In this document: positions 6,321-60,964 of the stretch, one piece after another
Layout of the letters: the number at the start of each line of letters is the position of its first letter
Position numbering within the stretch: position 1 is the stretch's first letter
Origin: Persicimonas caeni
GTDB taxonomy: Bacteria; Myxococcota_A; Bradymonadia; Bradymonadales; Bradymonadaceae
DNA: 64,000 bases
Assembly (NCBI RefSeq): GCF_006517175.1
Contig: NZ_CP041186.1
Coordinates: forward strand, 4,801,074 to 4,865,073
Reading direction: 5' to 3'
Notes under the pieces: generated by a model
Seen by the model: only the letters and a program-made list of their open reading frames with translations
Told to the model about the DNA's origin: nothing
The model's database searches: none
Made by a program: the position numbers and the translations under genes

Positions 6321-6872
6321 ATGGCCGAAGAACAGCAGCAAAGAAATTGGTACATCGTTCAGACCTTCTCGAACTACGAAAACAAAGCCAAGCAGGCCCT
6401 TGAGCAGCGCATCGCTGCGTCAGGGCGTGAAGAGGCGTTCGAGGAGATCTACATTCCGACCGAGACGGTCGTTGAAGTCAAGAACGGCAAGCGCCGCGAG
6501 CGCACCAAGAAGTTCTACAAGGGCTACATCTTCGTAAAGATGGTCCTCGACGACGAAACTTGGCATATCGTCAAAGATACGCCCAAGGTCGTCGGCTTCG
6601 TCGGTGGCACCCAGCGCAAGCCCAGCCCCGTGCCCGAGAGCGAAGTCAAAGGCATCGAGGAGAAGATCGAAGAGGGGACTCTTCGCGCCGAGCCCACCTA
6701 CGCCTTCCAGCAGGGCGACAAGGTGCGCATCATCGAGGGCAACTTCGCCGACTTCACCGGTACCGTCGAAGAGGTCAACGAAGAGAAGGAAAAGCTCAAG
6801 GTCTTCGTCGAGATTTTCGGCCGCCCGACCTCCGTCGAGTTCGACTTCGACCAGGTCGAAGAAGCCGAGTAG
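6321..6872 (+). CDS. nusG: Transcription termination/antitermination factor NusG
   Basis: Binds RNA polymerase to increase processivity and couples it to Rho or the ribosome. The 183-residue product has the N-terminal NGN domain beginning NWYIVQTFSNYENKAK and the F-x-KGYIFV motif. Its C-terminal KOW domain contains QGDKVRIIEGNFADFTGTVEEV. It starts three bases after secE, and no strong ribosome binding site is visible, which fits translational coupling. Confidence 0.96.
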   Translation: MAEEQQQRNWYIVQTFSNYENKAKQALEQRIAASGREEAFEEIYIPTETVVEVKNGKRRERTKKFYKGYIFVKMVLDDETWHIVKDTPKVVGFVGGTQRKPSPVPESEVKGIEEKIEEGTLRAEPTYAFQQGDKVRIIEGNFADFTGTVEEVNEEKEKLKVFVEIFGRPTSVEFDFDQVEEAE

Positions 6873-6890
6873 CTCGCAGATAGATATTCG

Positions 6891-6960
6891 CCACGGGGCA
6901 CACGGGGGCACGGAGAACAGCATGCTTGGTTTTTCTCCGTGGCCCCGGTGCTCCCCGTGG
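6891..6960. repeat. Long GC-rich palindrome, copy A
   Basis: Arms of about 26 bases (6891-6917 and 6935-6960) form a near-perfect inverted repeat built from CACGGGG/CACGGAG words around a 17-base centre. The same element recurs at 8315-8392. It lies between nusG and its terminator. Such CACGG-word palindromes are widely dispersed in environmental bacterial genomes; this is recalled knowledge, not a search. Confidence 0.8.
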
Positions 6961-6975
6961 TGAAAATGAGCAGTT

Positions 6976-7010
6976 AAGAACGCCGGGTCGGTTGATCCGG
7001 CGTTCTTTTT
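6976..7010 (+). terminator. Rho-independent terminator after nusG
   Basis: AAGAACGCCGG (6976-6986) pairs perfectly with CCGGCGTTCTT (6997-7007) around a ten-base loop and ends in a T-run. It separates nusG from rplK, so rplK should have its own promoter; a TTGACA at 7050-7055 is a candidate -35 without a good -10. Confidence 0.85.
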
Positions 7011-7132
7011 GTTGTAACACGCCCCGTCCAATCCACGAGGGATTGGATTTTGACATGCGAAACGCGCAGGAGTCGATCCTCCGACGCATACTGCGCTACT
7101 CGTACTGAACACGAGTCTCACAGAGGTTAGAG

Positions 7133-7558
7133 ATGGCTAAAAAAGAGATTGCAAAGATCAAGCTGCAGGTTCCGGCCGGCAAGGCGAACCCGTCGCCTCC
7201 CGTCGGTCCCGCGCTGGGCCAGCACGGCGTCAACATCATGGAGTTCTGCAAGGCATTCAACGCCAAGACGCAGGACCAGCCCGGAATGATCATTCCGGTC
7301 GAGATCACGGTGTACGCCGATCGGTCCTTCACTTTCATCACCAAGACCCCGCCGGCTGCGATCCTGATTCTCAAGGAATTGGGCATCCCCAGCGGCAGCG
7401 GTGTGCCGAACCGCATCAAGGTCGGAACGCTGACCTGGGACCAGGTCAAAAAGATCGCCGAGATCAAGCTTCCCGACCTTTCGACCGACGATATCGAGGC
7501 CGCCGCCCGTACCGTCGCTGGCACCTGCCGCTCGATGGGCGTCAACGTCAAGAAGTAA
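7133..7558 (+). CDS. rplK: 50S ribosomal protein L11
   Basis: Component of the GTPase-associated centre of the large subunit, binding 23S rRNA helices 43/44. The 141 residues are typical, with the N-terminal [20 protein letters not shown] segment and the C-terminal domain ending [23 protein letters not shown] lies just before the ATG. rplA follows 45 bases later, the standard L11 operon. Confidence 0.97.
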
Positions 7559-58819: not shown

Positions 58820-59533
58820 TCAGGAAGAGCTGGCGACGGTGAATCCGACCCCGCGCACTGTCTCGATGGGTTGCAGCGACGGCGCGCCTGCCTGCTCGAA
58901 TTTCTGGCGGACATTTCGCACGTGGCTGTCGATGGTGCGTTCGCTCACATAGGTGCTGGGCCCGTGAATGCGCATGATCAGCTCTTCGCGGGTGTAGACT
59001 TTGGTCGGCCGCGCCATCAGGGCGCGCAGCAGGTCGAACTCAGTCTTGGTCAAATCGACGGGGTTTCCATCCCAGCACACCTGACGGCTGGTGGGCTCGA
59101 GAGTGAGGCGGTGGTGTTGGAGCGTCTCGGAAGGCTCGTCCGTCTGCGCCGCAGACGACTCGCCGGCCAAGTTGCTGCGGCGCAGCACCGCCCCCACCCG
59201 CGCCGAGACCTCGCGTGGGTGGAACGGCTTGGCGATATAGTCGTCGGCGCCCAATTCCAGGCCAATGATGCGATCGATGTGCTCGCTGCGCCGCGACAAG
59301 AAGATGATCGGGACCTCGGAGTCGGCGCGTATGCGGCGACAGATCTCGGTGCCGTTGATTCCAGGCATCATCACGTCGAGTAGCAACAAATCGGGGCCGA
59401 ATGCGTCGACTTTCTCGAGGGCTTGGTCGCCGTCGATCGCTTCGACGACGTGATAGCCTTCGGCCTCGAGGGCCACCCGCAGCACTGCGCGGATATCTTC
59501 GTCGTCGTCAGCCAGCAGAATAGTTGGAGCCAT
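58820..59533 (-). CDS. OmpR/PhoB-family response regulator
   Basis: The ATG at 59533 (GAAGG upstream) gives 237 residues. The receiver (1-118) has ADDDED, phospho-Asp in LLLLDVMMPG near residue 53 and Lys in YIAKPF. The winged-helix domain (about 135-235) contains TKTEFDLLRALM and the recognition helix SERTIDSHVRNVRQKF, ending ETVRGVGFTV. It is the likely end point of the phosphorelay encoded on the other strand and is transcribed divergently from a fatty acid desaturase. An 11-bp direct-repeat array upstream is a probable binding site. Confidence 0.93.
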   Translation of the reverse strand: MAPTILLADDDEDIRAVLRVALEAEGYHVVEAIDGDQALEKVDAFGPDLLLLDVMMPGINGTEICRRIRADSEVPIIFLSRRSEHIDRIIGLELGADDYIAKPFHPREVSARVGAVLRRSNLAGESSAAQTDEPSETLQHHRLTLEPTSRQVCWDGNPVDLTKTEFDLLRALMARPTKVYTREELIMRIHGPSTYVSERTIDSHVRNVRQKFEQAGAPSLQPIETVRGVGFTVASSS

Positions 59534-59649
59534 GAAGCTACCTTCTCCGATACAACATACAAATGGAGCAGGTTCGGTTCTCTTCGAGGGAGAAGCGGGG
59601 GGATTGGCCCGCCGATGATCTCTTCTTGAATGCGTTCCGGTCAAGGAGC

Positions 59650-59693
59650 GACTGCAATGAACTGCGTGACATGCGCATGACAACTGCGTGACA
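59650..59693. promoter_or_regulatory. Pho-box-like array of 11-bp direct repeats
   Basis: Read on the minus strand, TGTCACGCAGT, TGTCATGCGCA, TGTCACGCAGT and a weaker TCATTGCAGTC follow each other without gaps, an exact 11-bp period. OmpR-family regulators, PhoB in particular, bind tandem 11-bp repeats with TGTCA. The array ends 6 bases upstream of a minus-strand -35-like TTGACC (59639-59644), so it suits activation or autoregulation of the regulator gene. It also lies upstream of the desaturase. Confidence 0.65.
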
Positions 59694-59730
59694 GGCGTCG
59701 CGGATCATCTCGGCGACGTTCGCTTCGCAC

Positions 59731-59760
59731 TTGACCTCGTGGTAAGGGAGCCTGTGTATT
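59731..59760 (+). promoter_or_regulatory. Candidate desaturase promoter
   Basis: TTGACC (59731-59736) and TGTATT (59755-59760) are 18 bp apart, giving a start near 59767 and a leader of about 55 bases to the GTG at 59822. Confidence 0.4.
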
Positions 59761-59821
59761 TGACAACGCGGGGGCATCCGAGAACCTCGCAATGAACTCC
59801 TCATGTTGTAGCGAGGTCCCT

Positions 59822-60964
59822 GTGTCCAAAGCCCCTCCGTATCTCGAGCACGATTTTGATCCCCGCAAAGTCGATGTCAAAGAACTCGCCCGCGAACTCA
59901 AGGCGTTGCGCGCCGAACTCGACGCCGAAGCCGGCCCCGAGGACATCGCCCACCTCGAAAAGATCGAGCGATGGGGCAAGCTGTGCACGATGCTGGGCTA
60001 CGGAACCGCTTGGATGGCGCCGAACCCGGTGTCCAGCGTGCTCATCTCGCAGGGCGTGCTCACCCGTTGGCTCCTGATGCACCACATCAGCCACCGAGGC
60101 TACGACAAGGTGCCGGGCATCGATCCGAAGTACACCAGCAAGGTCTTCGGCAAGGGTTGGCGTCGGCTGATCGACTGGATGGACTGGATCTATCCGGAGG
60201 CGTGGCACGAAGAGCACGACTTTTTGCATCACTACCACCTGGGGGAAGACGACGACCCCGATCTACTCGAGCGCAATACCGAGTGGATGCGCGAGCAAGA
60301 CTTGCCCGGATGGCTCCAAAAGCTTCTGGTCGGGCTGCTCGCCGGCACCTGGAAATGGGTCTACTACGCGCCGAGCACCCTCGACGAATTGCAAAAGGCG
60401 CGCGCGCGGCGGGCCAAAGAGCCGGCGCCCGAGCCGGCCGAGCTGTTGAGCCCGTTCAACGAGCGCGGCCGCGAGCTGTGGCTCAAGTGCTTGATTCCGC
60501 ACGCGCTGTGGCGCTTTGGTGCCATCCCGGCGATGTTTGCCCCCCTGGGGCCCGTCGCGGTGGGCAATGTTCTGTTGAACACGCTCGGCGCCGAGTTGTT
60601 CACCAACATCCATGCCTTTCTTATCATCGGGCCAAACCACACCGGTGAAGACCTGTACCGATTCGACGAGCCAGTCGAAGGGCGCGAAGAGTTCTACCTT
60701 CGCCAGATCGTTGGCTCGGCCAACTATGCCTGCGGCAACGAGTTCGTCGACTGGACGCAGATGTGGCTCAACTACCAGATCGAGCACCACATTTGGCCCG
60801 ACCTGACGATGCTGCAGTACCGAAAGGTCCAGCCCAAGGTCAAAGCGCTGTGTGAGCGCATGGGGATTCCGTACGTGCAGGAGTCAGTGTTCGTGCGCGC
60901 CAAGAAGATGATCGACGTGATCTTGGGCAAAGCCAAGATGCGGCGGGTGGATGGGTTGGTATAG
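59822..60964 (+). CDS. Fatty acid desaturase
   Basis: The GTG at 59822 has GAGG five bases upstream and gives 380 residues; an ATG 30 bases earlier lacks a ribosome binding site. The three histidine boxes of membrane di-iron desaturases are present: HHISH near residue 87, HDFLHHYH at 122-129 and YQIEHHIWPDL near 320. Hydrophobic segments lie between. The enzyme introduces a double bond into acyl chains, adjusting membrane fluidity. Its divergent position next to an OmpR-family regulator suggests regulated expression. Confidence 0.9.
   Translation: MSKAPPYLEHDFDPRKVDVKELARELKALRAELDAEAGPEDIAHLEKIERWGKLCTMLGYGTAWMAPNPVSSVLISQGVLTRWLLMHHISHRGYDKVPGIDPKYTSKVFGKGWRRLIDWMDWIYPEAWHEEHDFLHHYHLGEDDDPDLLERNTEWMREQDLPGWLQKLLVGLLAGTWKWVYYAPSTLDELQKARARRAKEPAPEPAELLSPFNERGRELWLKCLIPHALWRFGAIPAMFAPLGPVAVGNVLLNTLGAELFTNIHAFLIIGPNHTGEDLYRFDEPVEGREEFYLRQIVGSANYACGNEFVDWTQMWLNYQIEHHIWPDLTMLQYRKVQPKVKALCERMGIPYVQESVFVRAKKMIDVILGKAKMRRVDGLV

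Follow-up and report, generated by a model that had tools for sequence, protein, structure and literature searches.

Which regulator, if any, acts at the short direct repeats that separate a response regulator gene from a divergent desaturase gene in Persicimonas caeni, and on which of the two genes? The repeats had been noticed in a preliminary description of the 64,000-nt stretch of DNA analyzed here, which we refer to as the window, and had been likened there to a Pho box. We examined the repeats themselves, their frequency in the genome, the candidate regulators that could recognize them, and the corresponding loci of related bacteria.

Results

Three half-sites in the intergenic region

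The features of the locus, with the basis on which each was assigned, are as follows.

59683..59693, minus strand: half-site unit 1, TGTCACGCAGT (sequence reading, repeat analysis, box-model scoring)
59672..59682, minus strand: half-site unit 2, TGTCATGCGCA (sequence reading, box-model scoring)
59661..59671, minus strand: half-site unit 3, TGTCACGCAGT, the same as unit 1 (sequence reading, box-model scoring)
59650..59660, minus strand: claimed fourth unit, TCATTGCAGTC, out of register and not counted (direct reading; pair score -4.4 bits)
58820..59533, minus strand: OmpR/PhoB-family response regulator, 237 aa (Response_reg and Trans_reg_C), recognition helix VSERTIDSHVRNVRQKF (Pfam, alignment, tree)
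59615..59644, minus strand: sigma-70-like promoter candidate of the response regulator (consensus match only, 9/12)
59822..60964, plus strand: fatty acid desaturase (PF00487), likely start GTG 59822 (Pfam, relative's start)
59760..59765, plus strand: TTGACA, possible -35 of the desaturase, without a convincing -10 (direct reading)
59731..59736 with 59755..59760, plus strand: TTGACC with TGTATT, the other desaturase promoter candidate (direct reading)

Read along the minus strand from 59693 to 59661, the array is TGTCACGCAGT-TGTCATGCGCA-TGTCACGCAGT in exact 11-bp phase. Units 1 and 3 are identical and lie inside a 16-nt direct repeat (22-bp spacing, 94% identity), and the palindrome CATGCGCATG occupies the middle of the array. 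The preliminary description had counted three units and a weaker fourth in perfect 11-bp phase on this strand. We retained the three and dropped the fourth, since TCATTGCAGTC, taken in phase, matches unit 3 at only 1 of 11 positions and the pair that it would form with unit 3 scores -4.4 bits under the box model described below. The GCAGT common to the array and to this segment sits one base out of phase. Likewise, the array had been said to abut the -35-like TTGACC of the regulator promoter; it stops at 59661, leaving a gap of 16 bp to that hexamer (59644-59639), which is followed after 18 nt by GATCAT (59620-59615). The start codon of the regulator lies 127 bp downstream of the array, which reads on the regulator's coding strand.

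We place the desaturase start at GTG 59822 as the likely one because the protein's VSK... then aligns with the MSK... of a 79%-identical relative. With this start, the two genes share an intergenic region of 288 bp (59534-59821), as had been described. Neither desaturase promoter candidate is among the consensus promoter matches, and RNA structure in both leaders was no better than in shuffled sequences. A coding origin of the array, through a TTG-started extension of the regulator reading frame to 59683, was set aside, as ATG 59533 with its upstream GGAGAAGG is the better start. Just 5' of both start codons we observed a same-sense ATGTTGTAkCGrrG (59548-59558 and 59803-59813; 11 nt, 91%), possibly by chance. 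Neither neighboring gene has an evident phosphate role.

The triple repeat occurs once in the genome

The genome of P. caeni is a single contig of 8,047,206 bases (8.05 Mb), and motifs were counted by pattern searches of the genome and in ~0.2 Mb of its own sequence. The exact triple TGTCA-N6-TGTCA-N6-TGTCA is present once in 8.05 Mb, namely at this array, and a version with one mismatch occurs nowhere else in the whole genome. The exact pair TGTCA-N6-TGTCA was found six times, two of them within the array, and its reversed control not at all. Compared pairwise, the 11-bp units of the array match at 25 of 33 positions, which, whatever the letters involved, is the top self-similarity of this kind in the window; first-order random sequence reached such self-similarity at 5 positions in 4 Mb. 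Because the array is the sole zero-mismatch triple of the genome, has no one-mismatch counterpart, and belongs to a pair motif seen six times against none for the reversed control, we do not attribute it to chance.

These counts also bear on the possibility that the array is bound by another OmpR-type regulator or some other factor, or that it arose by a recent small tandem duplication and has no present function. A recent duplication would give what is observed for units 1 and 3, namely identity inside a 22-bp-spaced repeat, and at first look the genome offers well over 100 regulator-like candidates as binders; the central palindrome is a further point in favor. We nevertheless consider this explanation improbable, since the genome has very few TGTCA pairs spaced in this way and at least three of the other four pair loci look intergenic, two of these lying close to a predicted gene start.

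The array resembles Pho boxes of the same group

A Pho box comprises two 11-nt units, and its core differs between species (PMC4415409). To score the array, we used a 22-bp model built from 13 boxes in phoB, pst, and phoU promoters of other genomes, with none from this genome. The array receives 19.2 bits, the top score in the window, followed by a runner-up at 12.1 bits; the members of the model, each scored without itself, range from 11.6 to 27.2 bits. The model alone is not specific, as a score of 19 bits turns up about twice per Mb in random sequence of the same composition. If a Pho box is defined by at least two directly repeated 11-nt units that carry the PhoB core of the species, the array has three such units.

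Boxes at recognized phosphate loci provide the closest comparison. Upstream of its own pstS, P. caeni carries TGTCACCTGACTGTCGCACGCC / TGTCACCTGACTGTCGCACG, with TACCCT five bases on. The boxes at phoB, pst, or phoU of relatives read CGTCACGTCCCTGTCACC, CGTCACGGGATCGTCACC, CGTCACGTCGTTGTCATGCG, CGTCATGAGGCTGTCACA, CGTCACGCGTTCGTCACC, and TGTCGCGAATCTGTCACA. In three genomes of the same family (G014, G017, and G020), arrays of three or four units stand beside phoB, for example TGTCACGAAAA-AGTCACGATTA-TGTCACG (also TGTCACGAAAA-AGTCACG...-TGTCAC). The likeness to a Pho box that was first noticed is thus borne out, also against the pst, phoB, and phoU promoter boxes of relatives. Like the Pho box of E. 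coli (CTGTCAT-N4-CTGTCAT, 11-nt units), the array consists of head-to-tail 11-bp units with a TGTCAY core, and it is close to the relatives' promoter boxes. It differs in having three units, in spacers that are GC-rich (GCAGT, GCGCA) rather than A/T-rich, in the lack of a -10-like hexamer at the usual spacing, and in adjoining no known phosphate gene. Judged from its sequence, the array is real and non-random; we read it as a putative Pho-box-type operator made of three half-sites, and probably as a further example of a familiar kind of binding site.

In promoters activated by PhoB, the box replaces the -35 element and the -10 element lies about 5 nt past the second unit, although not every box is of this kind. 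Several of the two-unit boxes at pst, phoB, and phoU have a -10-like hexamer five bases past the second unit (TAGAAC, TAGAAA, TAGACT, TACCCT). At the corresponding positions the array has CGCAGT and GCAGTC, neither of which is -10-like. A classical PhoB promoter in which the array serves as the -35 is therefore unlikely, and for the same reason we term the array Pho-box-like and not a PhoB-activated promoter.

The multi-unit arrays of the three same-family genomes separate phoB from a divergent gene, by its reading a myo-inositol-phosphate synthase gene, and point at this partner (L198:3757-3799, minus strand; L199:2450-2492, minus strand; L200:2456-2574, plus strand); L200 has a separate two-unit box besides its multi-unit array. 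They share with the array of the window three to four TGTCACG-type units, the 11-bp phase, and a divergent intergenic region flanked by a response regulator and another gene. They differ in that the regulator is phoB itself and in that the array faces the synthase-like partner and not the regulator.

The adjacent regulator is distinct from PhoB

P. caeni has a Pho cluster at 5.34-5.35 Mb with phoU, pstB, pstA, pstC, pstS, a phosphate-selective-type porin, phoR, and phoB. The PhoB candidate of the genome, encoded there together with pstSCAB, phoU, and phoR, is ~490 kb from the array. Under the PhoB equivalog model, the window regulator scores 210.7 bits and the pst-linked PhoB 243.4 bits against a cut-off of 296.2; since the pst-linked PhoB itself reaches only 243.4 bits, this threshold is a strict one for the lineage. 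A tree of 41 sequences places the PhoB proteins in one clade and the window regulator's relatives in another (split support 100/100), and the window regulator is 40% identical to the PhoB of its own genome. The PhoB proteins of the group share the helix RTVDTHVKRLR, and the window regulator has RTIDSHVRNVR. Where E. coli PhoB has Arg201, the own PhoB retains Arg (KRLR) and the window regulator has Asn. Among the family regulators examined, only the window regulator and L053, which has His, are without Arg at this position. The adjacent regulator neither groups with the pst-associated PhoB nor keeps Arg201, and we reject its identity with PhoB on the basis of the tree, of the recognition helix, and of a different gene being the one linked to pst. 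Two tandem response regulators of the window regulator's family are encoded at ~3.151 Mb of the same genome (L156:5653-6381 and 6556-7266, minus strand; G000:C1); they group with the window regulator in the tree (84/46), yet have Arg at the PhoB-201 position.

Although it is not PhoB, the adjacent regulator (58820-59533) might still use the array as its operator, regulating its own gene from ~16 bp upstream of the -35 and perhaps the desaturase too. OmpR/PhoB-type regulators often bind beside their own genes, so the position of the array, on the coding strand 5' of the start codon and near the -35-like TTGACC, favors the local regulator. It is also of the right family, retains the equivalents of Arg193, Thr194, Asp196, Arg200, and Arg203 in its recognition helix, and the uniqueness of the array in the genome is what a very local target would lead one to expect. 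All known sites of the OmpR/PhoB family are direct repeats (PMC4832192), as is the array. Set against this is the Asn at the Arg201 position: in the PhoB-DNA structure, Arg201 hydrogen-bonds a guanine in each half-site, and in PmrA, which also has Asn there, this residue makes no DNA contact in a docked model (PMC3973317). Single-residue arguments about specificity are weak. The sequence of the array is that of the Pho boxes at phoB and pst loci, and the relatives of the regulator have no comparable array, as described next. We regard binding by the adjacent regulator as the second likeliest reading, behind binding by PhoB.

The array and the gene pair in relatives

A search of the contigs for the regulator returned only distant relatives (37-47% identity). 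Upstream of 22 relatives of the window regulator there was no box of 13 bits or more, nor was there a TGTCA-type or comparable 11-bp array upstream of its relatives. Strong boxes are present at 4 of 21 phoB loci, a comparison that is partly circular because the boxes of these four loci served to train the model. Autoregulation by the regulator, as suggested in the preliminary description, is possible but weakened by three observations: the protein is not PhoB, it has Asn at the Arg201 position, and the 22 relatives are without an upstream box.

The closest relatives of the desaturase (79, 73, and 68% identity) have no regulator alongside; boxes of 11.5 bits or more were found at 0 of 15 desaturase loci. 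In the window, a kinase and REC-Hpt pair adjoins the regulator. This pair has counterparts in three relatives (REC-Hpt 39% and kinase 34% identity where compared), where no DNA-binding regulator stands beside it. The idea that the local phosphorelay controls the desaturase, another suggestion made at the outset, thus finds no comparative support at the desaturase loci or at the kinase/REC-Hpt pairs. The regulator-desaturase pair itself, sought in other genomes through relatives of the desaturase, the regulator, and the REC-Hpt protein, was not found, and the literature yielded no relevant link between PhoB, a Pho box, and a desaturase. By these sequence comparisons, in which the genus is represented by one genome, both the array and the pairing of the two genes look lineage-specific.

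PhoB as the likeliest binder

Taken together, the residue at the Arg201 position, the separate clades, and the boxes at phoB loci as against none at the neighbor's relatives lead us to favor PhoB over the neighboring regulator; the comparison of regulators favors PhoB without proving it. We propose that a regulator of the OmpR/PhoB family uses the array as a cis-regulatory operator, and give an even chance to the PhoB of P. caeni as its likeliest binder. The sequence of the array, its rarity, its fit to pst, phoB, and phoU boxes, and its absence near relatives of the two genes are observations; that a protein binds it, which protein this would be, which gene would respond, and in which direction are inferences. 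Under phosphate starvation, phosphorylated PhoB would occupy the three half-sites in head-to-tail order and change the transcription level of the response regulator gene and perhaps that of the divergent desaturase. It would more likely act from an upstream position, or by interfering with the regulator promoter 16 bp downstream, than by classical activation with the box in place of the -35.

Should PhoB bind the array, the regulator, the desaturase, or both would be an unexpected member of the Pho regulon in a little-studied predatory lineage, and one response regulator would control another. Should the local regulator bind it, the array would be the first target of an orphan regulator, and Arg201 would be unneeded to read TGTCA. 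With either binder, the array would be a single operator of known type, and its interest would lie mainly in the possibility that, in this lineage specifically, phosphate status is tied to an orphan regulator and a desaturase. A fuller version, that of a lineage-specific rewiring in which PhoB and a triple Pho box drive or repress the orphan regulator and the divergent desaturase and so connect phosphate to a second circuit and to lipids in a predatory bacterium, is speculative and on balance unlikely.

Other Pho-box-like sites

Further boxes were observed in the same genome. At ~2,743,530 (L245:7521-7542, minus strand; G000:C1), TGTCATACATCTGTCACAAAGA is followed five bases on by TATCCT, the textbook geometry of a PhoB promoter; it lies near a 798-aa lipoprotein-like reading frame and a protein with PLD and lamin-tail domains, which have no known phosphate role. 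At ~5,927,790 (L247:7792-7813, plus strand; G000:C1), TGTCATACAGCTGTCACGTACT stands directly 5' of a 695-aa lipoprotein-like reading frame without a Pfam match, a possible member of the Pho regulon. The best-scoring box in the ~0.2 Mb of own sequence examined, TGTCACAAGACTGTCACGAATT at ~383,890 (L149:7878-7899, minus strand; G000:C1; 21.4 bits), apparently has an SDR gene on one side and a divergent reading frame on the other, with a transposase-like gene nearby. Lastly, the relative G034 carries a pair of near-identical arrays of three units, CGTCACGCGCG-TGTCATGGCCT-TGTCrATCGGC, 90 bp apart in a single intergenic region (L212:6312-6323 and 6402-6413, minus strand).
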